Shown here: positions 49,664 to 64,000 of the stretch, one piece after another | How positions within the stretch are numbered: position 1 is the stretch's first letter | How the letters are laid out: every line of letters starts with the position of its first letter | Source: Desulfoglaeba alkanexedens ALDC | Lineage (GTDB): Bacteria > Desulfobacterota > Syntrophobacteria > Syntrophobacterales > DSM-9756 | Reading direction: 5' to 3' | DNA: 64,000 nucleotides | Assembly: GCF_005377625.1 (NCBI RefSeq) | Contig: NZ_CP040098.1 | Location: forward strand, 1,915,501-1,979,500 | Position numbers and translations under genes: made by a program | The notes under the pieces: model-generated | What the model saw: the letters and a program-made list of their open reading frames with translations, nothing else | What the model was told of the DNA's origin: nothing | Database searches by the model: none

Positions 49664-50201
49664 ACTGAAGCGAGCCGCGCTGATGACGCGGTTGTTGCAG
49701 AACCTGAAGGATAAGGGGAGCTGGTGCGGGGAGACGCATACCCAAAAGGCGACCTTCTTTGTGCAGCATCTTATGGATGTCCCCTTGGGGTTCGAGTTCA
49801 TCTTGTACAAGCACGGCCCGTTTTCGTTCGACCTACGCGATGAACTCACGAGTCTACGGGCGGATAGGCTGATTCGGCTGGTTCCGCGCTGGCCTTATGG
49901 CCCTACCATCATGCCAACCGAGTTGGCCAAAAAGCTTCAGAACAACTATCAGCGGACACTTGGATTATATGAAAACAAGATTGCCTATGTGGCCGACAAA
50001 CTTGGTGCCAAAGGTGTTGCTGACCTGGAACGTTTGGCCACAGCGTTTTATGTCACCAGGCAGCAGTGGGCAGGCGATCCACCCGAAAAAAGGGCAGCCA
50101 AACTGTCGGAGATCAAGCCGCATATTTCAGCCGACCAGGCGCTGGCGGCCATTCGTGAAGTGGATCAGATGATCGAGGAATCGCAAAAAATCCTGCATTG
50201 A
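49656..50201 (+). CDS. YwgA-like protein (Panacea/DUF4065-type fold)
   Basis: 181 residues from ATG 49656 with AGGAGGATG upstream, overlapping the HD gene by eight bases. Features: ETHTQKATFFVQHLMDVPLG, FEFILYKHGPFSFDLRDELT, a pattern of the YwgA and Panacea group. In Bacillus subtilis ywfO (HD) and ywgA are neighbours, as I recall, so the HD-YwgA pair is probably an old functional module. Intact here, unlike its neighbours. Confidence 0.65.
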   Translation: MDRLKRAALMTRLLQNLKDKGSWCGETHTQKATFFVQHLMDVPLGFEFILYKHGPFSFDLRDELTSLRADRLIRLVPRWPYGPTIMPTELAKKLQNNYQRTLGLYENKIAYVADKLGAKGVADLERLATAFYVTRQQWAGDPPEKRAAKLSEIKPHISADQALAAIREVDQMIEESQKILH

Positions 50202-50303
50202 CAAGGAGACACCGGATTGACCACCGACTCATAGAAGATTTTCTCTCCTGCCTGCCGCGAAAGTGAAGCGCGGCGCAGGTAAGGGCGGCGAAAGAGATGG
50301 ACC

Positions 50304-52651
50304 ATGAACGATAGGCGCTTGATCGAGGATTTCCTGCCGATACAAGCCATTTCGGCAAAAGCAAGCCGGGAGAAATCCGTCCGCAAGGGGCACATTTCGA
50401 CCCTTCACCTCTGGTGGGCGCGGCGGCCCCTGGTGGCGTGACGGGCTGCAGTGTACGGGGCTTTGGTGCCGGTGGCACGGTTCATCCCGGAAAACGGTCC
50501 GGACAACAAGAAACAGAGCCTGGGCAGGGCCAACGCGGCCAAGTTCATCGAGCGGCTCTTCAAGTATCCGGGCAACCCTGCCGTCATCAAGGAAGCCCAG
50601 AGGCACATCCTCGAAGCCCATGCCGAGCGTTTGACCAGAGAGACGGGCAAGACTGTTACGGTCGAGGATATCGAGGCGGGACAAGCGCCCCGCCCGAAGG
50701 TGCTGGATATGTTCGCTGGCGGCGGGGCCATTCCAATTGAAGGTGCCCGACTGGGATGTGAGTCACATGCCCTGGACCTCAATCCGGTCGCCTATCTCAT
50801 CGAATTGTGCACCGTCACCTTCCCGCAGCAGTTCGGAGCGGAGCTGGCCGACGACATTGAGAAGTGGGGCAAAACCATTCTGAAGCGGACGCAAGAGGCT
50901 GTGTCCGACGTTCTTGCACGCATACCGGTTGCACGGAAGCAACCGAAGGCGATCCAAAGAACCCTTAGGGATGGAAATGAAACGCCAGCCGACGATTATT
51001 GTGTCGTCGCCTACTATTGGACGCGGACCATCCCATGTCCAAATCCGCAGTGCAAAGGAACCGTACCGCTCTATCGACAGACCTGGTTGAGGAACAAATC
51101 CTCCGGTTACGTGGCCTTGAAGCCGGTACCGGACATGGGCAGACGCATCATGCGTTTTCAGGTGGTCGAAGCTCGGTCCGCATCGGCGCTCGGCTTTGAT
51201 CCGTCCACCGGGAGCGCGGGATCATCCACGGCATGCCCCTTCTGCCAAACCGCTCTTGATGGTCCCTATGTCCGCAGGTATGGCGACGAGAAAGGCTTCG
51301 GCCAGCAGCTCATGTGCGTGATTGCGCTCAATCCCGACGGCCCAGGGAAGTTCTATCTTGTCGATGAATCCCTTGCGGCCATAGAGGCCGAGCATCAGGC
51401 CATGTCCGAACACCGCGCGGCGGAGATCGAGCGCGAGCTTGGGCCGAGCAGCCTTGATGAGGAGATTCCCCCGACCGGTAACGCCGGGCTTGCCACAGGG
51501 AACAGCTATCTTTACGGCAGGGTGAGGATCTTTTAGAACGACATCCAGGGTGACCCTCTGAGGTAGATCCAGATGGCCTTGAAGCAGCAAGCGCATCAGC
51601 TTCGTTTGCCCTCGTTCCCAAGCTGGAGCTTGGGAACAAGGTGGAAGGTACAGCTTGGGAACAAGGTCAAAAAATCCCCTCTCCCTTGATGGGAGAGGGT
51701 TGGGGTGAAGGTGAGAAAATTAACGTATGTCAATCAGTTACATTCCCCTCCCCTTAATCCCCTCCCACAAGGGGAGGGGAAATAGAATTCCCCTCGTTCC
51801 CAAGCTATGGCTTGGGAACGGCCTCACGGAAGCTGGAGCTTCTGCACAGTTGTGTTCCCAAGCTGGAGCTTGGGAACAAGAAGCAAAAGATCTGCACCCT
51901 TTACGGCATCCGGACGTTCCGTCAGGCGTTCACTCCGCGCCAAAGGTACATCTTGTTGACCATGGCCCGGGAAGTGCGCCGTGCCTACCAAGAAATGCTT
52001 GACCAAGGAGTGGAGCCGGAACGGGCCGGGGCCATCACGACATACATGGGTGTCTGGTTAAGCCGTTTGACTGATCGATGCAATGGGTTGGCCAGATGGA
52101 ATAACCTCTGGGAGAAGATTGAAAGTCTTACTTGAATAAAAGCCATTTTGATGACATGGCATTGCCCTGAAGTCAATATTTTTGAGGGTGGCTCAGGTGA
52201 TGCTCTCAGCCAGCTCGCGTTCATGACTTCCGCCGTGCGCCGCGAAGGCCAATTTAGTAACCCGTCAGTAGTGATGCGCGGTTCCGCCGCCGAGCTACCA
52301 TATGACAACGGCATCTTCGATGCGGTAATCACCGACCCGCCCTATTACCACAATGAAAGCTACTCAGAGCTTTCCGATGTCTGTTACGTCTGGCTGCGGC
52401 CGACCATCGGTTTTCTCTACCCCGAGCATTTCGCCGGCCAACTGACGCCGAAGAAAAAGGAATGCGTCGCCGCAGCTTATCGCCAGGGCGGAAAGCAGCA
52501 GGCGCGGGACTATTACGAGGACACCCTGTTTCAGTCTTTGCGAGAAGCCCATCGCGTCACAAAACCTGGTGGCATCCTGATCGTCGTGTATGCCCATAAG
52601 ACCACCCTCGGATGGGCGATTCTTGTGGATGCGCTTCGGCGTGCCGGATAA
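50304..52651 (+). pseudogene. DUF1156 DNA methyltransferase, disrupted by two stops and an inserted element
   Basis: Starts [20 protein letters not shown]. Continuous homology through [14 protein letters not shown], then TGA (50439-50441), VPVARFIPENGPDNKKQSLG, the SAM-site region VLDMFAGGGAIPIEGARLG, and zinc-type CPNPQCKG/CPFCQTAL. At 51520-51899 it is interrupted by an element; without it the frame reads NSYLYGIRTFRQAFTPRQRY. A second TGA is at 52133-52135 (ESLT-stop-IKAILMTW). Then the catalytic DPPY motif: FDAVITDPPYYHNESYSELS and VTKPGGILIVVYAHKTT. It stops at 52651 after VDALRRAG, short of the family C-terminus. Members methylate adenine in phage-defence loci. A duplicated N-terminal snippet (HRLIEDFLSC) precedes it near 50219. 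Confidence 0.85.
51520..51899 (-). mobile_element. 380-bp non-autonomous element in the methylase, 9-bp target duplication
   Basis: Ends GGGTGAGGATCTTTT and AAAAGATCTGCACCC are inverted (14 of 15 match). It is flanked by exact copies of TTTACGGCA at 51511-51519 and 51900-51908. On the minus strand the content is: end, three-hairpin core (51796-51880), G/C-rich module also at 32.65-32.81 kb, a palindrome (51617-51634), and a ~90-base terminal part (GCTGATGCGCTTGCTGCTTC to GTCGTTCTAAAAGATC) shared with 58978-59175. No transposase gene is inside. Confidence 0.92.
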
Positions 52652-52686
52652 ACAACGGCCTTGTGCAGGAAGAGCAACTGGGAAGA

Positions 52687-53001
52687 ATGTTCGCCATCCG
52701 TGTCGGGCAAACCTTTCCCGTCGCACGAAATGCTTATGAGCCGCAGATCAGAGAGTGGGAGCCGATCATTGATAAAATCGCCGATCTTTTCATGGCCCTT
52801 GTCCCGGCGTCGCGGTTCATTCCGGAAAACGGACCGGACAACAAGAAACAGAGTCTGGGCATGGCCAATGCGGCCAAGTTCTTCGAGCGGCTCTGCAAAT
52901 TCATGCTAAGCACCATACAAACGGCGGCGGGAAGACTGGGACAACCGGTCAGCCGTTTGTCCGCCCGAAAGGAGTGTGCGACCACATTGAAAATCTGCTG
53001 A
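52687..53001 (+). pseudogene. Second DUF1156-methylase fragment
   Basis: 104-residue frame containing ALVPASRFIPENGPDNKKQS, then LGMANAAKFFERLCKF, clearly paralogous to the N-terminal part of the methylase (ALVPVARFIPENGPDNKKQS at 50456). The start (MFAIRVGQTFPVARNAYEPQ) and the end are unrelated. So at least two methylase copies existed and recombined. Confidence 0.6.
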
Positions 53002-53044
53002 ACTCGATCGAGGAAATATTATTTGATGAATCCCGTTTGCTGTT

Positions 53045-53698
53045 TCAGGCCGGCTGGCGGCAGCTCTCCCCCAGTCTTTGTCCCGCTGTCCGCAACCGCG
53101 CCGTCAGCTCGGCTTCCGCCTCGACATGCTTGAACATCTCCGGGGTAATTTCGGTAAACTGCGCAAACTCTTCGGGTGACATCCAGCGGGCCGGTCCGCC
53201 GTACTGGCAGGTGGTGCCGTAGCCACAGATGAAGCAGGGGGGATTCATGGTGTTGTAGAAGATTTGGTCGACAATCTCGAAGTTGAAGTAGCTTTTCAGA
53301 TGATAGGCGACATCCCTGGCAACAACCTCCGCCTCGTCGCCGCCGACCGCCAGCGCCACGGCGGGCATGCCCATGGTCTGGGGGTCGACGTGGCGCAGGG
53401 GAAACAGCCGCTCCAGAAAGTTGTGGGTGAAGCCGTTGGCCTTGCGAAAGTAGACCGTCGCGCCGACCACAATGCCATCGGCCTTGCTGATTTCCTCATA
53501 GAGGGGCTGCATATCATCCGGCAGTACACACCGGCTGTCTTTGGCGCACTTAACGCAGCCGATGCACGGCCTGATGTTCAGTTTCGCCAGGTCATAAATC
53601 TTATAGGGGTGGCCGGACGCTTCGAGGACCAGCTCAACCATTTTGCGGGTATTGCTCCCCGGCTTTGGACTGCCATTGAAGCCGATCAGCATGGTCAT
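53045..53698 (-). CDS. Flavodoxin-like NAD(P)H-dependent FMN reductase family (iron-sulfur type)
   Basis: 217 residues. FMN-binding loop GFNGSPKPGSNTRKMVEL, a ferredoxin-like Cys cluster CIGCVKCAKDSRC, VVGATVYFRKANGFTHNFLE and a C-terminal Cys set (CFICGYGTTCQYGG). This is the iron-sulfur flavoprotein branch, which in anaerobes reduces oxygen species or quinones. Same strand as the Crp-like gene upstream. Confidence 0.85.
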   Translation of the reverse strand: MTMLIGFNGSPKPGSNTRKMVELVLEASGHPYKIYDLAKLNIRPCIGCVKCAKDSRCVLPDDMQPLYEEISKADGIVVGATVYFRKANGFTHNFLERLFPLRHVDPQTMGMPAVALAVGGDEAEVVARDVAYHLKSYFNFEIVDQIFYNTMNPPCFICGYGTTCQYGGPARWMSPEEFAQFTEITPEMFKHVEAEAELTARLRTAGQRLGESCRQPA

Positions 53699-53769
53699 CC
53701 TCCTCTCATAAAAGATCGTTCTGAAAGCGGGATACCTTCATCCGCCAGCCGACAAGTACCCCGCACCCG

Positions 53770-54477
53770 TCAAGCAAGTTCCTCGTCGAGGGTGACTACC
53801 AGCGCCTGGCCGGTCTGGATGATCCGGCCGGCATTTTTCAGATGTTTCATCGCCCGGGTGATGCTGACCCGATGCGCCCCCACGAGAAAACCCAGGTCCT
53901 CGTGGGTCAGGGGAAAATGAATCTCGTAGCCGTTGGCGACCGCGGTGCCATGTTCGCGGGCCACGGTAACCAGGACGCGGTAGAGGCGTTTTTCCAGGGT
54001 TGAAAACGAAAAACTGTCGGCCCGGTCGGTCAGCCACCGGATGCGGGCGCTCAGGTTTCTGATAACCTGCAGGCCGATGTTGGGCCGCTCCAGAACGAGG
54101 GCCTCAAAGCGCTCCTTGGTAAACCCACAGACCAGGGTCTTCTCCAGGCAGACGGCGCTCACCGGATAGGACGTTTCCTCGGCAAGCATCTGCTCACCGA
54201 AGAAATCGCCCCGCTGCCGCAAATCAAGGGTTATCTCGGTGCCATCTTCATGCACCTTGCTGAGCTTGACCCGGCCGGCCTTGATCAGGAACATGTGGCG
54301 GGCCGGATCGCCCTGAAAAAAGATCGGCTTCCTGGCTGCCAGCAGCTGCCGTTCCGCCGCCTCCACCAGGGCCTCGATATCCTCGCCAGCCAAATGCTCG
54401 AACAGCCAGAGGCTGCCGATACACTCCGGACTGAGAAGCATATCCTTGCCGGCCAATTCCTCGCATAGACAACCCAT
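53770..54477 (-). CDS. Crp/Fnr-family transcriptional regulator
   Basis: 235 residues from ATG 54477, with GGAGAAGG upstream; longer frames lack a ribosome site. cNMP-binding-like beta roll (PIFFQGDPARHMFLIKAGRV, DFFGEQMLAEETSYPVSAVC), a long dimer helix (LVLERPNIGLQVIRNLSARI) and a C-terminal winged helix (PLTHEDLGFLVGAHRVSITR). Early Cys residues (MGCLCEE) do not match the FNR 4Fe-4S spacing. It may control the surrounding genes in response to redox or another signal. Confidence 0.87.
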   Translation of the reverse strand: MGCLCEELAGKDMLLSPECIGSLWLFEHLAGEDIEALVEAAERQLLAARKPIFFQGDPARHMFLIKAGRVKLSKVHEDGTEITLDLRQRGDFFGEQMLAEETSYPVSAVCLEKTLVCGFTKERFEALVLERPNIGLQVIRNLSARIRWLTDRADSFSFSTLEKRLYRVLVTVAREHGTAVANGYEIHFPLTHEDLGFLVGAHRVSITRAMKHLKNAGRIIQTGQALVVTLDEELA

Positions 54478-54549
54478 GGCGCCTTCTCCACTTGGGGACC
54501 GGGACAAACGGCAGACCGTACCGTCAGCCTTAGACTAGTCGAGCGCGGA

Positions 54550-55131
54550 TCATTCGGTAAGCACTTTCCCGGCGCCGCAGCCGGTGATCTCCCGCAGCCG
54601 GTCGCAGAATTCTGTCAATTCGATCAGCTGGATCTCGACCGGCACCTGGACCAGGTCGAAGAAGGCGATGATTTCCTCATCGGTGAGCGAATTGAGACCG
54701 ACATCCAGCACCAGGATGCGATCGTAGCGGCCCAGCTGCATGCGGGCGTCGATTTCATTCCAGCCCATCGCCGCCATGATAGCCGGCCAAACACGAACCC
54801 AGGCCGGGGTCATGAGCATGGTGCGGTTCTTTTCCAGTTCGCCGATCCGGTCGCCCACCAGCCAGGCAATGCAGTTCTTATAGGGAGACGCGATTATCCC
54901 GAGATTACCGGCCAGGGCCGTCAAATCCGGATGACAGCCGCCGCCGAACAGCAACTGCACCGGTCCGCCGGATGCCTTGGCCGTGTCGATGGCCGCCCGC
55001 AGCTCCGCCGCCAAGCGATCGAGATCGGCATGCAGGGCGGCATCCAGCCAGATGATGTGAACGTCGTGATCCGCTCCGAGACAGGCCTGCAGTTCATCTT
55101 CGAAGATGCGGCAGGCAACCAGTGTTTTCAT
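54550..55131 (-). CDS. DUF1638 family protein
   Basis: 193 residues. Family pattern: LVACRIFEDELQACLG at the start, VHIIWLDAALHADLD, VQLLFGGGCHPDLTALAG, KNCIAWLVGDRIGELEKNRT and the middle AWVRVWPAIMAAMGWNEIDA. DUF1638 is found with corrinoid or methyltransferase genes of anaerobes. Function unknown. It lies between the Crp-like gene and the 50-residue CxxC protein, all on the minus strand. Confidence 0.82.
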   Translation of the reverse strand: MKTLVACRIFEDELQACLGADHDVHIIWLDAALHADLDRLAAELRAAIDTAKASGGPVQLLFGGGCHPDLTALAGNLGIIASPYKNCIAWLVGDRIGELEKNRTMLMTPAWVRVWPAIMAAMGWNEIDARMQLGRYDRILVLDVGLNSLTDEEIIAFFDLVQVPVEIQLIELTEFCDRLREITGCGAGKVLTE

Positions 55132-55262
55132 ATTTCACCTCGTAATCACTGTTCCGCGGCGCCCGGACGCAACCCACCGGATTGTCGGGGTCTCGGTCGA
55201 GAGACCGGCTGCCTGGCGCGACAGCAATCGCCGGACGACAGACAGCCGGTTCTGCAAAGCGG

Positions 55263-55415
55263 TTAATCCTTGTTCCTGGTGGCCGCAGCTTCCTTCTCGG
55301 ATACCGGCTTGTCTTCCGCCAGAACCGCCTTTTTGCCGCACAGATCGCACCGGCCATCTGTTGTAATACATGGCTGCCGGGGTGCCTCGCCGCCACACAG
55401 GCCGCATTTTGCCAT
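55263..55415 (-). CDS. 50-residue CxxC zinc-ribbon-like protein
   Basis: Short gene from ATG 55415 to TAA 55263-55265. It has AKCGLCGG and, after a third Cys, CDLCGKKA: two CxxC pairs, a likely zinc ribbon. A lysine/alanine-rich tail follows (EKEAAATRNKD). The upstream AAGGAGGTGA is a perfect anti-ribosomal match with good spacing, strong support that this tiny frame is translated. It heads the DUF1638-Crp-flavoprotein group. Confidence 0.75.
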   Translation of the reverse strand: MAKCGLCGGEAPRQPCITTDGRCDLCGKKAVLAEDKPVSEKEAAATRNKD

Positions 55416-56118
55416 ATCGTCTCACCTCCTTTTCGACATTCGGTTCATCTTGATGGTGAAAGAAATATAACTAATGGGGCAACCCGTTTCTGTAGCACCG
55501 GCTACAAAAGATTCTCTGGCAATGGTTTTTTTATCGACGACATCCTCGCGGCGGTGAAGACCGTCAATCATCACGCCCTGGACCATAAGTACAACCAAGC
55601 GACTCCGACAAAGGTATCGGACCGCCAGAAAGAGCTTTGTCGTTTGAGCAAGTGCGATGATCAGAACATCCAGTAGATGGCAGATACTTACATCGCCTGG
55701 ATCGAAAAAATCCAGTTGGCTGCCGTTGACCGTGTTTTTGAGTAAATGGAATCTCTGGGGATTAAAGCGGGGGTTGCCACACCCGAAGATGTGGCGCGGC
55801 TCTATCTCAACAAGCAGTCCTATCCGACCAAAGCCGACTGTGATGTCGAATTACAGACGCAAGGTGGCGGAACTGGACCGCAGGACGGCGGGCAAGGAAG
55901 AACGCAGCCGCTTCCGGCGTTGGAAGATGCGGCGTTTCGCCGAGGTGGGCAGCGAGATTCTGTTCCGCCGGGCCGCGAACGTCGCCTGCGACGGGGCCAG
56001 GGATATGGAGCGGTTCAAGACCCGGCTCCGACGCTGCCGGGGCTTGAACCGGGGTCTGAAGGGACTACCCTTTCAGGTAGACGTGTCGCTTGCCGCCGCG
56101 GGTCGCCACGTTCCCCTC
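55416..56118. other. Spacer with decayed coding pieces
   Basis: About 700 bases. Short protein-like pieces occur in the plus direction: DDILAAVKTVNHHALDHKYN near 55.54 kb, MADTYIAWIEKIQLAAVDRV ending at TAA 55743, ATPEDVARLYLNKQSYPT near 55.79 kb and RWKMRRFAEVGSEILFRRA near 55.92 kb. They lie in different frames and none is a whole gene. I take them as relics of one or two deleted genes. Confidence 0.5.
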
Positions 56119-56242
56119 GTTCCCAAGCTCTGGCTTGGGAACGGCCTCAGGGGAATCGAAGCTGGAGCTTCTGCACCGTTGTGTTCACAAGCTGGAGCTT
56201 GGGAACAAGGTTGAAATCGGCATTCTCGGACAGCCTCCTAGA
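56119..56242 (+). repeat. Dispersed repeat with three-hairpin core
   Basis: Core at 56119-56209 in plus orientation (variant palindromes CCCAAGCTCTGGCTTGGG and ACAAGCTGGAGCTTGGGA), then GAAATCGGCATTCTCGGACA to CTCCTAG at 56242, the same end as at 17736 and, inverted, at 46331. Confidence 0.75.
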
Positions 56243-56425
56243 CGGAACGGAGCGTAGTGCCAAAAACTTCCAATTGGGTCGTATGTCATTGACATCACAG
56301 ATATACTTTTTTGCCACTGTCAAAGATGAGTTAAACCGACAAGAACGAATCAACGGGGCCGCCTTGGACCACGCTCAGGGTTTTCATCATGGCCGAAATC
56401 GGATGACCCGGGGGATGTACGGGGG

Positions 56426-56456
56426 TCGTCAACCGAGCATTTATTCAGGTTGACAA
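56426..56456 (+). promoter_or_regulatory. BirA-type operator of the biotin operon
   Basis: Half-sites TCGTCAACC (56426-56434) and GGTTGACAA (56448-56456) are inverted with one mismatch across 13 bases. This is the known bacterial BirA pattern (TTGTAAACC, spacer, GGTTTACAA), with a slightly short spacer. The right half overlaps the -35 box, so repressor binding would block the promoter. Confidence 0.75.
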
Positions 56457-56478
56457 CACATGCGGCTCCTGCTATGAG
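56450..56478 (+). promoter_or_regulatory. Sigma-70-type promoter of the biotin operon
   Basis: Perfect -35 TTGACA (56450-56455), 17-base spacer, -10 TATGAG (56473-56478). The bioA start codon follows about 75 bases downstream. Confidence 0.72.
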
Positions 56479-56553
56479 CAGTCGCGTGGAAGCTGGGAAC
56501 GCGATCCGGCTTCCGGCAATCGTCTCAATCGTAAAATCAGCCTTGGAGCTCCC

Positions 56554-57941
56554 ATGGATCCCATCTCCCCGCGAACGCGGCAACTGGAAGAAGACGACAA
56601 GAAATACCTGTGGCACCCTTTCACCCAAATGAGCGACTGGATTCAGGAAGAAATCGTCATCATCGAGGAGGGAGACGGCTGCTGGCTCAAGGACGTGGAT
56701 GGCAGGCGGTACCTGGACGGCGTGTCGTCCCTGTGGACCAACGTCCATGGGCATCGAAAGGAACCCCTGGATCGGGCTCTCAAGGACCAGGTGGACAAGA
56801 TCGCGCACTCCACCCTCCTGGGTCTGACCAACGTTCCCGCCATCCAACTGGCCAAAGAACTCATCGAAATCGCTCCCCAGGGCCTGACCCGGGTCTTTTA
56901 TTCGGACAGCGGTTCCACCGCCGTCGAGATCGCCCTGAAAATGGCCTTTCAGTATCACCAGCAGTGTCCCCGGGGATACCCCTCGAAAACCCGATACGTC
57001 TGTTTGTCCAATTCCTACCACGGCGATACGATCGGTTCGGTGAGCGTGGGGGGATCGACCTGTTCCATTCCATGTACCGGAAGCTGCTTTTCCCCGCCTA
57101 CCGCGCTCCTTCCCCTTTCTGCTACCGGTGTTCCCTGGGCAAGTCCCCCGGTTCGTGCTCCATGGACTGCCTCCTGGAAATGGAGAAAATCCTCCGGCAG
57201 CACGCTCATGAGATCGCCGCGGTGGTCGTCGAGCCCTTGGTCCAGGGGGCTGCGGGCATCCTGGTGCATCCTCGAGGCTACCTGCGTGGGGTACGGGAAC
57301 TGTGCACCCGCTACGGGGTCTTCATGATTGCCGATGAAGTCGCCGTGGGCTTTGGAAAGACGGGAACGATGTTCGCTTGCGAACAGGAAGGGGTGACGCC
57401 GGACTTCATGGCCCTGGCCAAGGGCCTTTCCGGGGGCTACCTGCCCCTGGCGGCGACTCTGGCAAGAGAAGAAATCTACGAAGGGTTCCTTGGGGAATAC
57501 GAAGAATTCAAGACCTTCTTTCACGGCCATACCTTCACGGGAAACCCACTGGGATGCGCGGTGGCCCTGGCCGGCCTGGAAGTTTTCCGCCGAGAGAACG
57601 TGCTGGATTCCCTCCAGGGGAAAATCTCCCACCTGGCGCAAAACCTCGAGGCCTTCCGTTCCCTCTCTCATGTGGGAGACGTGCGCCAGTGCGGGATCAT
57701 GGTAGGGATCGAGCTGGTAGCCGACAAGGCAACCAAGGAACCTTACCCGCCTGAGCAAAGGATGGGCCACCGGGTGATCCTCGAAGCGAGGAAACGGGGA
57801 GTCATCATTCGCCCCCTGGGGGACGTCGTGGTGCTCATGCCCCCTCTTGCCATCTCCAGGGAAGAGATCGACACCCTCTGCGCCGTTGTATATGAGTCGG
57901 TTCGAGCGGCCACGGAACCGAGGGGAGAAAAAGGACTGTGA
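56554..57941 (+). pseudogene. bioA: bioA, adenosylmethionine-8-amino-7-oxononanoate aminotransferase, frameshifted in a G run
   Basis: ATG 56554 with GGAG five bases upstream. The first part ends its homology at [18 protein letters not shown] in frame 1. The rest ([20 protein letters not shown] onward) continues in another frame to the stop at 57941. The break is at six G, 57048-57053: one more G restores VGGIDLF. PLP enzyme motifs are present on both sides: [49 protein letters not shown] and the PLP lysine in LAKGLSGGYLPL. It makes 7,8-diaminopelargonate with SAM. It is either a real frameshift, slippage-tolerant, or a sequencing error; a functional enzyme would be about 463 residues. Confidence 0.88.
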
Positions 57942-58231
57942 AGGAAGAGGTTCGGACCGGCAGTCTTCGTTTTGACTCCACAGACCCCATCTATGCCGAG
58001 CATTTCCCGGATCGACCCGTGGTACCCGGGAGCCTGGTGGTGGGGGCTTTCCTGGAGATCGCGGGGGGTATGGGTTTCCTGGGCTCGGAAGTCGTCGTCG
58101 AGAATTTTCGATTTCGGGAATTTGTCGCCCCCGGTCTTTACGATTACCGGGTGGAGATCCGCGGGGATACCTTGCGTTGTTTTCTGTCCTCCGAGGACAA
58201 GAATCTGGTGACGGGATCGCTGAAAAGATGA
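57938..58231 (+). CDS. FabZ-like 3-hydroxyacyl-ACP dehydratase of the biotin operon
   Basis: 97 residues starting at GTG 57938, overlapping the bioA stop. It is a short hotdog protein: the active-site stretch YAEHFPDRPVVPGSLVVGAF aligns with the FabZ GHFPGxPVxPG motif (His) and is followed by the FLEIAGG helix carrying the Glu. About 45 residues shorter than FabZ. Likely dehydrates the 3-hydroxy intermediate while pimeloyl-type chains are built on the ACP in this operon. Confidence 0.75.
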   Translation: MKEEVRTGSLRFDSTDPIYAEHFPDRPVVPGSLVVGAFLEIAGGMGFLGSEVVVENFRFREFVAPGLYDYRVEIRGDTLRCFLSSEDKNLVTGSLKR

Positions 58232-58974
58232 CCTTGGAATACTCCGGGACCCTGGCCCTGATCCTGGGCGGTTCCTGTGAGCTGGCCCTGCAGCTGGCAA
58301 GGGCCATGATCGGCGACTCGCTTCGGCCGATCCTCACCTATCGAAACGAGGCGGGTCGGGATCGCATCGTCCGCGGACTCGAGGACCTCCCCGGCCGCTA
58401 TGACTCACGCCGCCTGGACTTGGCCGACAGAACAACCCTCGAGGCGCTTTTGGATTCATGGGGGGAGGCCCCGTTGGACTTCACCGTGGATTTTGCCCAC
58501 GGCGACTATGAGCAGCTGGTGGCGGCGGCGGACGACGATATCGTAGAACATTATTTCAGAGAGAACGTGTCTTCAAGGGCTTGTTTCCTCAAAAGGGCGG
58601 CCAGGATTATGTTGCGCCGCAGGAAGGGAAGAATGGTCTTCGTGTCCTCCGGGGCCGCCGAAAATCCCAACCGGGGACAGGGATTCTACGCGGCGTCCAA
58701 GCTGGCGTGCGAAGCCCTGTATCGCAGCGTGGGGCTCGAACTGGCAAGACGCGGCGTCACCACGGTGATCCTCAGGCCGGGGTACGTCCGCGCAGGCAGA
58801 GGCAGGGCCTACCTGGAAAGGGAAGGAAATCAAGTTTCGCGGAAAATCCCCACGGGAAAGGCATTGGAAGGAGAAGAAGTTGCACGAACTATTCTCTTTC
58901 TCCTTTCAAACCATGCTCGAAACCTGAATGCCACCGTTGTAACCATGGATGGCGGACTCTCGTCCGGAAAGTGA
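58228..58974 (+). CDS. FabG-like short-chain dehydrogenase (3-ketoacyl-ACP reductase) of the biotin operon
   Basis: 248 residues from ATG 58228, overlapping the previous stop (ATGA). Nucleotide loop LILGGSCELALQLARAM is a loose version of the SDR Gly motif. Catalytic parts: VFVSSGAAENPN (Ser), FYAASKLACEAL (YxxxK) and IGxxP-like VILRPGYVRAG. It probably reduces a 3-keto group on the operon's ACP. The stop is within the target duplication of the mobile element that follows. Confidence 0.8.
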   Translation: MTLEYSGTLALILGGSCELALQLARAMIGDSLRPILTYRNEAGRDRIVRGLEDLPGRYDSRRLDLADRTTLEALLDSWGEAPLDFTVDFAHGDYEQLVAAADDDIVEHYFRENVSSRACFLKRAARIMLRRRKGRMVFVSSGAAENPNRGQGFYAASKLACEALYRSVGLELARRGVTTVILRPGYVRAGRGRAYLEREGNQVSRKIPTGKALEGEEVARTILFLLSNHARNLNATVVTMDGGLSSGK

Positions 58975-58977
58975 AAA

Positions 58978-59175
58978 GGGTGCAGATCTTTTGCTTCTTG
59001 TTCCCAAGCTCCAGCTTGGGAACACAACTGTGCAGAAGCTCCAGCTTCGGTGGGGCCGTTCCCAAGCTGGAGCTTGGGAACGAGGGGAAACGGAGCTGAT
59101 GCGCTTGCTGCTTCAGGGCCATCTGGATCTACCTCAGAGGCTCACCCTGTATGTCGTTCTAAAAGATCCGCACCC
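58978..59175 (+). mobile_element. 198-bp non-autonomous element in the biotin operon
   Basis: Ends GGGTGCAGATCTTTT (58978-58992) and AAAAGATCCGCACCC (59161-59175) are inverted with one mismatch. Flanks AAGTGAAAA (58969-58977) and AAGTAAAAA (59176-59184) match in 8 of 9. It holds the three-hairpin core (58997-59081) and the same ~90-base right end as the element at 51520-51899, which is inverted relative to it. No transposase. Confidence 0.9.
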
Positions 59176-59194
59176 AAGTAAAAAGGAAGCGTGC

Positions 59195-59641
59195 ATGGAA
59201 CTCTTCGAATCGATTCAAGGGATACTCACCGAGATTCTGGACTTGGAAGATACGGAACTGACCCCCGAAACCTACCTCATACGCGACCTGGGTGCAGAAT
59301 CCATCGACCTTATCGAGATCGCGGTAGCCATGAGCTACCGCTTCAAAATCCAGGTGGAAGACGACGAGGCGTTTCTCAAGAACTTTCGCCTCCACCTGAT
59401 GGAAGCCCAACAGAAGGACCTTAAGCCGGCGGACTACCTGGCCGAAAAGTATCCCTTCCTGTCCCGGGATCGAGTTGAAGAGATCATCTCGGACCTCGAG
59501 CGGGGCCCCGCGGTCAAGCTCAAAGACCTGATCTGCTATGTGGCTTATCGCTTACACGGCGCCCCGGCGGACGAACGCGACCCGCTCCTGCCTCTCCTTT
59601 CGGCGCAAGTCGGGAGTCGGACTGCAGCGGGGTCCCGTTAG
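59195..59641 (+). CDS. Acyl carrier protein of the biotin operon, with long C-terminal extension
   Basis: 148 residues from ATG 59195 with AAAAGGAAG upstream, 19 bases after the mobile element. Residues 1-75 are an ACP: LTPETYLIRDLGAESIDLIE with the phosphopantetheine Ser at 36 (ESI instead of DSL). The rest (KDLKPADYLAEKYPFLSRDR and on) roughly doubles the usual length (about 80). A private ACP would hold pimeloyl intermediates apart from general fatty-acid synthesis. Confidence 0.8.
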   Translation: MELFESIQGILTEILDLEDTELTPETYLIRDLGAESIDLIEIAVAMSYRFKIQVEDDEAFLKNFRLHLMEAQQKDLKPADYLAEKYPFLSRDRVEEIISDLERGPAVKLKDLICYVAYRLHGAPADERDPLLPLLSAQVGSRTAAGSR

Positions 59642-59649
59642 ATCGTCCT

Positions 59650-60882
59650 ATGTCCGGGAAACGACGCGTCGTCATCAGTTCTTCCGGCGTTATTTCCTCC
59701 CTTGGAGACACCCCCGGCCGGATTCTCGAGAGCCTCAAGGAAGGCAGGGTCGGTTTTCGGCGATCGAGCGCAGACCCGCAGGTCGCGGTCTGCCCCGTGG
59801 AGGGCTTTCGTCCCAAGTCTTTTCTGGGACCCTGCAAAGACAGCCGGTACCTCCACCGGGGAGCTCTTTTTGCCGCGGCTGCGGCCATGATTGCCGTTCG
59901 CGAGTGCGGGATCGCCGGCGAGGAACGCTCGGGAGCAGGGCTCTTTGTGGGGGTGGGTCCGAACCTGGATATCGGCGGCGAATTCCCGTCGGTTGCGGAA
60001 GGAAAGCTGGACCGGCCCGATCTCCAAGCCCTTTGGATTTTGCGGTTCCTGCCCAATACGGCCGCCTCCGTCATTTCGAAGCTGGCTCAAATCCACGGCG
60101 AGAATCTTACCGTCACCACCGCCTGTGCAGCGTCTCTCCAGGCCATCGGCGAAGGATTTCGGCGTATTCGAGAGGGACACCTGGATCTTGCCTTTGCCGG
60201 TGGGGGCGACTCTCGATTAAGCCCCGGAGGAATTCTCGCCTACAAGAAGGCCCACGCGCTGTGTGTCGGGGCCTTTCCCCCGGACCGGGCCATGCGCCCC
60301 TTCGATGCGGATCGAGCCGGCTTCGTTCCGGGAGAGGGCGGGGCCTTCTTCCTCCTTGAGGAACTGGAACACGCCAGGAGGAGGAATGCGCCGATACTGG
60401 CGGAGGTTTGCGGCTACGGGAGTTCCCTGGACGGCTACAGCATGACGGCGCCGGACAGGGAAGGGAAAGGGGCAAGAAGAGCCGTGCAGAAGGCATTACG
60501 GGAAGCCCGGGTTGCGCCGTCTGAAATCGACGTGGTCTTTTCCCACGGGACCTCGACGCCCCTCAACGACGAAGTGGAAGCACGGCTCATCGAAGAACTG
60601 TACCCCGAGGGTTCGCCTCCCATCGTGGCCTTGAAGTCCTGGATCGGCCACCTTGCATCGGCCTGCGGCGCCCTCGAACTCGGGATCGCCCTCCATTGCA
60701 TGCGGGATGGCTACCTTCCCGGGATTCGCAACCTCCGGGCCCCCTGCAACCCCCGGGTCCGATTTCTAGACCTCGAAGTAAGCCTGTCCTGTCGAACGGC
60801 AATCATCCAGAACTTCGGATTCGGGGGACAGAACGCAGCCCTGGTGATCCGGCGCTACGAGCCCCATGCCCGAGGAGAATAG
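59650..60882 (+). CDS. Beta-ketoacyl-ACP synthase (KAS I/II type) of the biotin operon
   Basis: 410 residues. Thiolase fold with catalytic Cys in TVTTACAASLQAIGEG (Cys about 159), His in VVFSHGTSTPLNDE (His about 299), Lys and His in ALKSWIGHLASACGALELGI (about 329 and 334). All three groups (C, H, H plus Lys) are intact, so it should extend acyl chains. It starts eight bases after the ACP gene and is the condensing enzyme of this private elongation set. Confidence 0.87.
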   Translation: MSGKRRVVISSSGVISSLGDTPGRILESLKEGRVGFRRSSADPQVAVCPVEGFRPKSFLGPCKDSRYLHRGALFAAAAAMIAVRECGIAGEERSGAGLFVGVGPNLDIGGEFPSVAEGKLDRPDLQALWILRFLPNTAASVISKLAQIHGENLTVTTACAASLQAIGEGFRRIREGHLDLAFAGGGDSRLSPGGILAYKKAHALCVGAFPPDRAMRPFDADRAGFVPGEGGAFFLLEELEHARRRNAPILAEVCGYGSSLDGYSMTAPDREGKGARRAVQKALREARVAPSEIDVVFSHGTSTPLNDEVEARLIEELYPEGSPPIVALKSWIGHLASACGALELGIALHCMRDGYLPGIRNLRAPCNPRVRFLDLEVSLSCRTAIIQNFGFGGQNAALVIRRYEPHARGE

Positions 60883-60887
60883 AGACC

Positions 60888-61340
60888 GTGGAGAACCCCC
60901 TGGTGATTCGGTCAATGCAGACGGGCTTTGTCCTCCTGGATCGAATCCTAGAGGTCGACGCCCGGAAAATCGTCGGGGAAAAGACCTTCCACGGTGCCTC
61001 CGCCTATCTGGGGATTGAAGCCCTGGCGCAGCTGGGGGCCTATCATGTGCGGTTCCTGAACGATTTCAGGAAACACGCCTTCCTGCTGAAGATCCAGTCC
61101 TGCACAATCCCGACGGGCTCAACCATCCGGGGCTCCTATCGTCTTTTCGGCGAACTGCGAGCCGGCAGCGCTCATTCGTATGCTCATCATCTCGAGGCCC
61201 GGAGGGATGACCTGGTTGTCTGGGGGGGAGACTTTCTCTTTTCCACTGTCGCATACGACCATCGTTTCAAGAAAGACCTTCTTCAAACTCATTACGGAAA
61301 GATCTTTTCATGTTTGCGAAGCGATATGAAAACCGGCTGA
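60888..61340 (+). CDS. Hotdog-fold protein of the biotin operon (FabZ/FabA-like)
   Basis: 150 residues from GTG 60888 with GAGGAG upstream; an ATG ten codons on (MQTGFVLLD) is possible. Hotdog pattern: FVLLDRILEVDARKIVGEKT, then YLGIEALAQLGAYHVRFLND with Glu/Gln-rich central helix, and a beta strand GSTIRGSYRLFGELRAGS. It may be the second dehydratase or a thioesterase. It overlaps bioF by 31 bases. Confidence 0.65.
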   Translation: MENPLVIRSMQTGFVLLDRILEVDARKIVGEKTFHGASAYLGIEALAQLGAYHVRFLNDFRKHAFLLKIQSCTIPTGSTIRGSYRLFGELRAGSAHSYAHHLEARRDDLVVWGGDFLFSTVAYDHRFKKDLLQTHYGKIFSCLRSDMKTG

Positions 61341-62464
61341 ATCTACAAAAGAAATCAGGGCTTTATCGAGACCCTCCCGAATTCGACGGCAGAGAGGACC
61401 GATTCCTTCTGCTGGGTGGAAAGAAAGTCCTGAACTTCGCCTCCAACGACTACCTGGGACTGAGCACCACGGAAATCGCCGGAACACAGGTCGCCGAGAA
61501 TTTTCGGAAATTCGGTTCTTCGTCCTCTTCTTCCCGCCTGGTTTCGGGCCATTACTCCGTCATCAACCGGGCGGAGGAAGCCTATGCCTCCTATTTCGGG
61601 TACGAAGCGGCGGTGTTTTTCCCCAGCGGCTACCAGGCCAACTTGGGAATCCTGTCCACTTTGTTCGAAAAAGGAGATACCATCGTTTTCGACAAGCACA
61701 TCCATGCCAGCAGCGTGAAAGGGATGACCCTCAGCGGAGCCGCCTTTTACGGCTACAACCACAATTCCATGGATCACCTGGCCAAAAGACTCGAGAGCTG
61801 CGGCCATCCGCAGGTCGCGGTCCTCACAGAGTCTCTTTTCAGCATGGACGGCGATCTTTTGAACGTCGCCGGCCTGGGCCGACTCAAGGAAAAATACGGG
61901 TTTATCGCGGTGGTGGACGAGGCCCATTCCTTCGGTGCCCTGGGCCCCCGGGGCAAGGGCATTGCCCGGGAGGTGGCCGACGTTGCCCTGGGGACCTTCG
62001 GCAAGGCCTTCGCATTGTTCGGGGCGTTCGTGCTCCTTCCCCGGCTGTTCAAGGACTATCTTTTCAACTTCTGCTCCCCGTTTATCTACACCACGACTCT
62101 TCCCGAGGCTCACGCCGCCTCGGCCCTGGACCTCCTCGACATCGTCGAAAAGAGCGAAGACAGAAGGTCCCACCTCGCCGATATGAGCCGACTCATGCGA
62201 CGGAGACTCCGTGAGGAGGGTTTCAAAGTCTCCGGGGACGCCCACATCCTGGCCCTCGAGATCGGAGACGAAAACAAGGCGGTCCGGGTGTCCCGAAAGC
62301 TCCTCGAAAACGGGATCTACGCTCTTCCGGCGCGGTACCCGACGGTGCCCTTGAAACAGGCCATTATCCGGATCGGAATGACGGCCCTGCACCGGGAAGA
62401 GGACATCCGGCTGTTTGTGGACACAGTGAGGAGAATCTGCGATGAGCTCGAATCAAGAACCTGA
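61310..62464 (+). CDS. bioF: 8-amino-7-oxononanoate synthase
   Basis: 384 residues. PLP fold type I: FASNDYLGLS, GSSSSSSRLVSGHYSVINRA, VVDEAHSFGALGPRGKG (Asp/His) and GTFGKAFALFGAFV with the PLP Lys. It joins pimeloyl thioester and L-alanine to make KAPA. Its start lies inside the preceding gene and its end overlaps bioD by 23 bases, so translation is coupled. Confidence 0.93.
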   Translation: MFAKRYENRLNLQKKSGLYRDPPEFDGREDRFLLLGGKKVLNFASNDYLGLSTTEIAGTQVAENFRKFGSSSSSSRLVSGHYSVINRAEEAYASYFGYEAAVFFPSGYQANLGILSTLFEKGDTIVFDKHIHASSVKGMTLSGAAFYGYNHNSMDHLAKRLESCGHPQVAVLTESLFSMDGDLLNVAGLGRLKEKYGFIAVVDEAHSFGALGPRGKGIAREVADVALGTFGKAFALFGAFVLLPRLFKDYLFNFCSPFIYTTTLPEAHAASALDLLDIVEKSEDRRSHLADMSRLMRRRLREEGFKVSGDAHILALEIGDENKAVRVSRKLLENGIYALPARYPTVPLKQAIIRIGMTALHREEDIRLFVDTVRRICDELESRT

Positions 62465-63164
62465 AATTCTCTTCGTGGTGGGGACGGACACGGGTATCGG
62501 CAAGACCGTCCTATCCCTGCTTCTCATGCAGTTTTTCTTTGCCAAAGGTCTCAAACCCTTCTACCTCAAACCCGTCCAGACGGGATGCCGCGACCCTTAC
62601 GACACCGACAGCGACGCACGGTTCGTCTACAAACACGTGGAGGCTCTCCGGAGTCGCGACCCGGCCGAATCGGTGATTTATTGCTTCCGGGAGCCCAAGG
62701 CGCCCTACTTTGCCGCCCGCAACGAAGAATGCACCATCGATCCCCGGGTGATTCGAAAGGTGGTGGAGGAAAAACGGCTTGATCACTCCCCGTTGGTGCT
62801 CGAGGCGGCAGGTGGGATCCTGGTTCCCATGACCTCCACCCAACATGGGATCGACCTGGCGGCCGAAACGGGTGCCCGGCCCGTCCTCGCCGCCCGATCC
62901 GCCCTGGGAACCATCAATCACACGCTCCTTACCCTTGAGGTCCTTCGAGCCAGGAACCTCGAGCCCTTGGGCATTGTGTTCATCGACCCCTTCGACCCCT
63001 GCACCCCCAGGGACCTGGTCGAGGAAAACATGGAAGCCGTCCGGGATTTCGGCGGGATCCGCGTGGCGGGAGTCATTCCCCGGATTCCGGATTTCTCGAA
63101 CCCGCCGGGGGAGTGCTTCGAAATCCTGAGACGCATGTTTACCCGGGAACGGTTCTCGCCTTGA
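62442..63164 (+). CDS. bioD: Dethiobiotin synthetase
   Basis: 240 residues. P-loop VVGTDTGIGKTVLSLLL near residues 10-26, KPVQTGCRDPYDTDSDARF, LVLEAAGGILVPMTSTQHG (Mg-binding Glu/Thr region). It closes the ureido ring using CO2 and ATP. Last recognisable gene of the operon; bioB is not in the window. Confidence 0.93.
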   Translation: MSSNQEPEILFVVGTDTGIGKTVLSLLLMQFFFAKGLKPFYLKPVQTGCRDPYDTDSDARFVYKHVEALRSRDPAESVIYCFREPKAPYFAARNEECTIDPRVIRKVVEEKRLDHSPLVLEAAGGILVPMTSTQHGIDLAAETGARPVLAARSALGTINHTLLTLEVLRARNLEPLGIVFIDPFDPCTPRDLVEENMEAVRDFGGIRVAGVIPRIPDFSNPPGECFEILRRMFTRERFSP

Positions 63165-63475
63165 TCCCCCGCCCGCCCCAGCCTGTGACCCGTGGGCGGA
63201 TAGAGATTTCCGCCCCCGGCGGGGAGCAGCCCTTAAGGCCTTGAAATCGCCCAACGAAAGGAGACCATCGTGCCCCTCAAACCGGCTTCCGATGAACCCC
63301 CCGCCAGAGTCCGTCCGCCCCGGTGCGCAACCCGTATATCCTGAACTTCTCCAAGGCCTCTCTGCCTATGATGATGGAACACTCATTCCAGGATAAATTA
63401 TTGTAAAAGGTGGAAGGGCGAGCTCGACCGCCTCATCCTTCGAAGTGTTTTTTCGCCAGTACAGAGAGTATGTTT
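63165..63475. other. Spacer after the biotin operon with a possible decayed small gene
   Basis: 311 bases. GAAAGGAGACCATC before GTG 63270 looks like a ribosome site and start, but the frame ends after about 26 codons; nearby frames have pieces such as RNPYILNFSKASLPMMM. No terminator with a T-run is obvious. It may be the relic of a ninth operon gene. Confidence 0.4.
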
Positions 63476-64000
63476 TCATTGGAAAACCTTTTCCGTAGCC
63501 GGGGAGCTCTCGGGAACATACACGACATATCGGTCCAACTCCGCTTCCGTATCCTGCGTTTGAACGTGTACCGATAGAAGCAGGGATTCGAGAGCATCCC
63601 TGGAAATCTGGAGACTGTAGACGAGCGCCTCGCGCAAAGAGGCCCCTAAAGAAACCAGTTCCGCAATCATCAGGCTGTGCCTTATGGAAACGCTGACACC
63701 GGCTTGCTCATTGGTCCTGATATGGTTGATCACATTCAAGATCCGGTCTGCTCCGGACTCCGATAATCCCGTCTTTCTCACCAAGACCTGCTTTTCAACT
63801 TCATGAGGCAAGTACTCGAGCTGAATATAATAGAACCGGTCCCTCAGAGCCGCGTCGATCTCCTCGACCCCGGTAAACTTCTCTCCCTCGTTCATGGTGG
63901 CGAAGAATATAACTCCGGGCGCCACCTTTACGGTTCCCAGCTCATCGATCCAGATGCTGCGATCCTCGGAAAGCACGGAAAAAAGCTCGTTCAAGGCATG
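63476..64000 (-). CDS. MoxR/CbbQ-type AAA+ ATPase, partial (N-terminus off the right edge)
   Basis: The frame is open to base 64000, so only the C-terminal ~175 residues are present. HALNELFSVLSEDRSIWIDE contains the end of the Walker B/pre-sensor region; VIFFATMNEGEKFTGVEEID and AALRDRFYYIQLEYLP carry sensor 1 and the arginine-finger region of the AAA_5 group. Such ATPases assemble or load cofactors into protein complexes, usually with a von-Willebrand-domain partner. Confidence 0.75.
   Translation of the reverse strand, partial: HALNELFSVLSEDRSIWIDELGTVKVAPGVIFFATMNEGEKFTGVEEIDAALRDRFYYIQLEYLPHEVEKQVLVRKTGLSESGADRILNVINHIRTNEQAGVSVSIRHSLMIAELVSLGASLREALVYSLQISRDALESLLLSVHVQTQDTEAELDRYVVYVPESSPATEKVFQ

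Follow-up and report, generated by a model that had tools for sequence, protein, structure and literature searches.

A BirA-type operator with a 13-base spacer at the promoter of a probably imported bioA-fab-bioF-bioD operon in Desulfoglaeba alkanexedens

We analysed a stretch of 64,000 nucleotides from the genome of Desulfoglaeba alkanexedens ALDC (the window; positions are counted from its first base). Near its end lies an operon of the Desulfovibrio bio-fab type, with bioA, bioF and bioD, an acyl carrier protein (ACP) gene, a KAS gene, a reductase gene and FabZ-like genes in one row, preceded by an inverted repeat and a promoter. The features are as follows.

56333–63356, + strand: block acquired by horizontal transfer (operon, promoter and operator), delimited by similarity to contig C516 of genome G016
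56426–56434, + strand: left half-site of the BirA operator, TCGTCAACC, read in the sequence; the sister operon of G016 has the same half, and equivalents occur at 20 related sites
56435–56447, + strand: spacer GAGCATTTATTCA, 13 bases; the closest copy (G016) has 14 bases, CAAACATTTATTCG
56448–56456, + strand: right half-site of the BirA operator, GGTTGACAA, read in the sequence and compared with related sites
56450–56455, + strand: -35 hexamer TTGACA, within the right half-site; the same in four relatives carrying the operon
56470–56478, + strand: extended -10, TGC plus TATGAG (4/6), the hexamer at 56473–56478; TGn is equally placed in G016, G023, G024 and G033
56545–56548, + strand: likely ribosome-binding site GGAG before the bioA ATG at 56554, read in the sequence
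56554–57941, + strand: bioA, one base short near 57055, in a run of six G, when compared with the intact gene of the sister operon; TIGR00508 positions 1–146 match in one frame and 144–418 in another
57938–58231, + strand: first FabZ-like hotdog protein, keeping the His of HFPxxPVxPG and lacking the FabZ Glu (PF07977, 25.9 bits)
58228–58974, + strand: FabG-like SDR reductase
58980–59176, no strand: stretch of about 196 bp that carries REP-like palindromes and is lacking in the sister operon; the gap between two alignment blocks to G016
59195–59641, + strand: ACP with a C-terminal extension (PF00550)
59650–60882, + strand: FabF-like KAS (PF00109/PF02801)
60915–61340 (start may be 60888), + strand: second FabZ-like hotdog protein, keeping E..AQ and lacking the HFP motif; AlphaFold2 pLDDT 85, best Foldseek matches FabZ, E 1.7e-6
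61310–62464, + strand: bioF (TIGR00858, 327.6 bits)
62442–63164, + strand: bioD (TIGR00347, above cut-off)

BirA-type half-sites facing each other across 13 bases, as claimed in the initial annotation, are present exactly at 56426–56456, about 100 bp upstream of bioA. They match 15 of the 16 fixed positions of TTGTnAACC / GGTTnACAA, and the inverted repeat reaches 10 nt per arm with 90% complementarity. The spacer is N13, against N14/15 in the published consensus. When the whole 3,365,583-bp genome was searched for GTCAACC-N10..18-GGTTGAC, this operator was the single match; in the 864 kb of the same genome that were scanned by score, it alone reached at least 14/16 with spacers of N13–N16. 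In 100 order-1 shuffles of the region upstream of bioA, its score was never attained. No BirA site was found upstream of the genome's own bioB or its own birA, and an Rfam search of 50000–64000 returned no RNA element. This bioB (L003) stands alone, and bioB likewise stands alone and siteless in G016 and G015.

Because GGTTGACAA contains TTGACA, the overlap of operator and -35 follows in part from the letters of the half-site. TATGAG follows TTGACA at a distance of 17 bases. The earlier description of this promoter as near-consensus fits the perfect -35 and does not fit the -10, which, though extended by TGC, is weak (4/6, without the usual last T); for that reason a plain sigma-70 pattern scan did not report the bioA promoter. 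The same scan found no promoter within the operon. TTGACA-N17 ending in TGn recurs at the equivalent position in every one of the five operons that were compared, those of the window, G016, G023, G024 and G033 (4,990,251 bp), the last of which we take to be S. fumaroxidans MPOB.

All eight downstream genes of the initial annotation are there, with the qualification that bioA is frameshifted and the repeat stretch breaks the row. We infer one transcript for all of them, including those past the repeats. No open frame in the operon other than that of bioA is broken. A genome search found no second bioA: outside the operon, the sole further match over E 1e-40 (G000:176263-177387) scored 253 bits, below the family cut-off. 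The REP-like palindrome GTTCCCAAGCTCNRGCTTGGGAAC occurs, with up to two mismatches, at no fewer than 567 places genome-wide, and its clusters in the window lie at 56110–56215, just outside the acquired block, and at 58980–59100, inside the operon.

The two hotdog proteins appear complementary, with the His in the first and the Glu in the second, an arrangement largely kept in relatives. In the first protein the FabZ His is kept, and the Glu place is E in only two of the 14 relatives where the stretch can be aligned; in the second, across 10 aligned relatives, the Glu of E..AQ is kept and there is no HFP motif. The second protein has no Pfam match, and its predicted fold is FabZ-like. The active site of FabZ sits between two subunits. 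With active-site halves that complement each other, the pair may thus assemble into a functional, heterodimeric dehydratase. In other operons of the same kind, a nitroreductase-like gene separates ACP from KAS (L039:3343-3987, L041:4390-5040). It is missing from the operon of the window, G016 and G015, so that the enoyl-reduction step there would need another enzyme; the best match in the window's own genome is 28% identical.

Same-type half-sites precede bioA or bioB at 20 places in relatives, some of them between divergent bioA/bioD or bio/birA genes, and conservation upstream of bioA, on which the initial annotation had staked its proposal, is therefore borne out. Spacers were N14 at 10 places, N15 at 10 and N13 at none, in a tally that takes in one weak member (G005, 12/16) and one site, G028, for which N14 and N15 matches score equally and the choice is uncertain, and that is still compatible with an N13 frequency of up to 14%. 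Only sites adjoining biotin genes were counted, because the bare pattern also arises by chance: in 56 genomes it matched 71 times and its reversed control 41 times. An N12 match in G043 was taken as chance, lying inside aspS; G044 and G049 hold N12 matches nearly identical to it. Two sites from the same family as the window genome were found, before bioB in G005 and G006, both with N15. The orthologous site before bioA in G016 has identical half-sites and N14.

The spacer is thus shorter than usual, as first proposed, falling below the N14 or N15 of every relative checked; by alignment, it is a private one-base change relative to the N14 of the closest copy. Judged from these comparisons, the N13 site is a BirA operator by descent, because relatives have sites of this type ahead of bioA or bioB and the -35/TGn layout is conserved. 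The orthologous G016 site, with N14, shows this descent; the present site is a variant.

Exactly one protein in the genome exceeds the BPL_LplA_LipB cut-off, a BirA of 332 aa encoded at L002:1216-2211, far from the operon. It has the N-terminal helix-turn-helix (HTH) of group II BirA proteins (HTH_11, 57 bits), the DNA-binding domain that the earlier proposal needed; birA_ligase is matched above cut-off, and the match to birA_repr_reg is weak. Residues 13 to 314 align with the S. aureus BirA structures and residues 16 to 323 with that of E. coli.

The operon's closest copy is found in G016, a genome from another family within the same taxonomic order. Nucleotide identity to G016:C516 is 91.5% at 56333–58980 and 59176–63174 and 92.7% at 63234–63356, and the 21-kb contig has no further match in the window. 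LigA, encoded in the same window, is only 64% identical in amino acids to its G016 counterpart and 64–70% to those of most same-family genomes; BirA and BioB are 54% and 43% identical to the G016 proteins. At E 1e-60, bioF was absent from all seven same-family genomes. Between G016 and its congener G015, operon identity is 79–82%. In both of these the operon adjoins sat and qmo genes, which is not so in the window genome, where the apr/qmo region lies at 2.07 Mb, 100 kb from the operon, and is 71–80% identical to that of G016 over the aligning parts. The block thus has similarity far above background, a patchy distribution and a different location. Contamination as the source of the G016 contig was ruled out, the gene neighbourhood being the same in G015.

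The simplest reading of these comparisons is that the operon was acquired recently, with its operator, from a G016-like donor of another family, because the block is 91.5–92.7% identical where LigA and BirA are far lower, same-family genomes lack a close bioF, and even the congener's operon is more distant. The distribution suggests that transfer was into the window lineage. Relative to G016, the operator has a spacer one base shorter, the loss being alignable to CCC in G016, and an additional base immediately flanking the left half-site on its outer side. In all genes tested, both bioA halves included, dN/dS against G016 was 0.11–0.20, with the reductase at 0.20. This shows purifying selection, so the bioA break, if real, would be recent. 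The import, the private N13, the frameshift and the repeat in the gene row had all been overlooked in the initial annotation.

Our preferred reading, to which we give a probability of about 85%, is that a BirA operator overlaps the -35 of the single identified promoter of the bioA-fab-bioF-bioD operon, and that the block was imported and is now read by the resident BirA. Operator, promoter and genes would have arrived in a single block, the donor being a relative of the G016 lineage, and come under the sole BirA of the new host. With biotin plentiful, BirA carrying biotinyl-AMP would dimerise on both half-sites and block access of RNA polymerase to TTGACA, by analogy with work on E. coli and B. 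subtilis (PMC4016012); with biotin scarce, the operon would be transcribed from about 7 bases past 56478. Binding and repression by BirA at this operator are presumed. Three points weigh against the preferred reading: the N13 spacer, which matches neither the published N14/15 nor any of the 20 related sites; the weak -10; and the lack of a site at the genome's own bioB and birA. The N13 site may bind BirA less well, and weakened yet remaining repression seems most likely.

It is unlikely, although a serious contender, that the N13 and the bioA frameshift are both assembly errors located in or beside base runs, and that the site is in truth N14 and bioA intact. The bioA break does fall within a run of six G, and the lost spacer base can be placed in the sister CCC. 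Elsewhere in the same assembly, however, we found 0 frameshifts in 103 orthologues (113.6 kb of coding sequence), using a detector whose recovery of planted deletions is about two thirds; this makes two errors within 7 kb unusual and argues against general assembly noise without being decisive.

We find it rather improbable that the operator is a decaying relic, poorly read by the resident BirA, in which the spacer loss ended control and left the operon constitutive or on its way to being lost. N13 occurs nowhere else among the sites surveyed, the two same-family sites before bioB have N15, and the same operon holds both the bioA frameshift and the repeat stretch. Against decay stand the purifying selection on all genes tested, the lack of any other broken frame and the two intact half-sites. 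A chance inverted repeat, or a site of some other regulator, is very hard to credit: the bare pattern has its background, and some matches sit inside unrelated genes such as aspS, but orthologous operons keep the place before bioA, and the operator is unique in the genome. Returning to the imported operator read by the resident BirA, we put forward a further scenario only tentatively, namely that the operon brought its own operator along when it moved between families, and that the change from N14 to N13, a spacing shorter than at any other BirA site in the survey, later re-tuned or mis-tuned it to the resident repressor, control being still at work or the operon constitutive.

The idea that fab-like genes serve biotin synthesis under BirA control, as the initial annotation supposed, is not new. 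For delta-proteobacteria, BirA sites of the form TTGTcAACC-[N14]-GGTTgACAA and the fab-like genes in operons of this kind have been on record since 2004 (PMC545781), and the fab-like biotin genes of D. vulgaris were found in 2023, by mutant fitness, to be required for growth without biotin; related clusters occur in Syntrophobacter (PMC10102598). Control of all eight genes here is more properly called presumptive, because the operon is imported, its spacer changed, its bioA frameshifted and its row interrupted by a repeat. Since regulator, type of site and fab-like gene function had all been established before, the operator by itself changes little; what makes it a variant is its N13 spacer, against N14/15 in the literature. 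The locus is of value as a small natural test of vitamin-operon control after a move between families, combining half-sites from the donor, a resident repressor that shares only 54% identity with its donor counterpart, and a spacer shortened by one base.

Among known systems, the BirA/bioO pairs of E. coli and B. subtilis likewise combine a bifunctional ligase/repressor with an inverted repeat at a biotin promoter; their half-sites differ in letters and spacing, and they have been tested in vitro, whereas the window site is predicted from its sequence. BirA sites in Geobacter and Desulfuromonas (PMC545781, Table 1) resemble the operator in having half-sites TTGTcAACC / GGTTgACAA before biotin genes, and differ in their N14 spacer, against N13 here, and in the genes that follow. 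Desulfovibrio vulgaris DVU2558-2565 (PMC545781, PMC10102598) is alike in bioA/F/D, ACP, KAS, 3-oxoacyl reductase, two FabZ-like genes and a predicted BirA site; it has a divergent birA, and bioB in the cluster, whereas in the window genome both genes are located elsewhere and lack a site. Closest in layout is the Syntrophobacter-type cluster (PMC10102598; G033), which has the same gene order and a site with TTGACA in its right half, and which is set apart from the window, G016 and G015 by the nitroreductase-like gene between its ACP and KAS genes.
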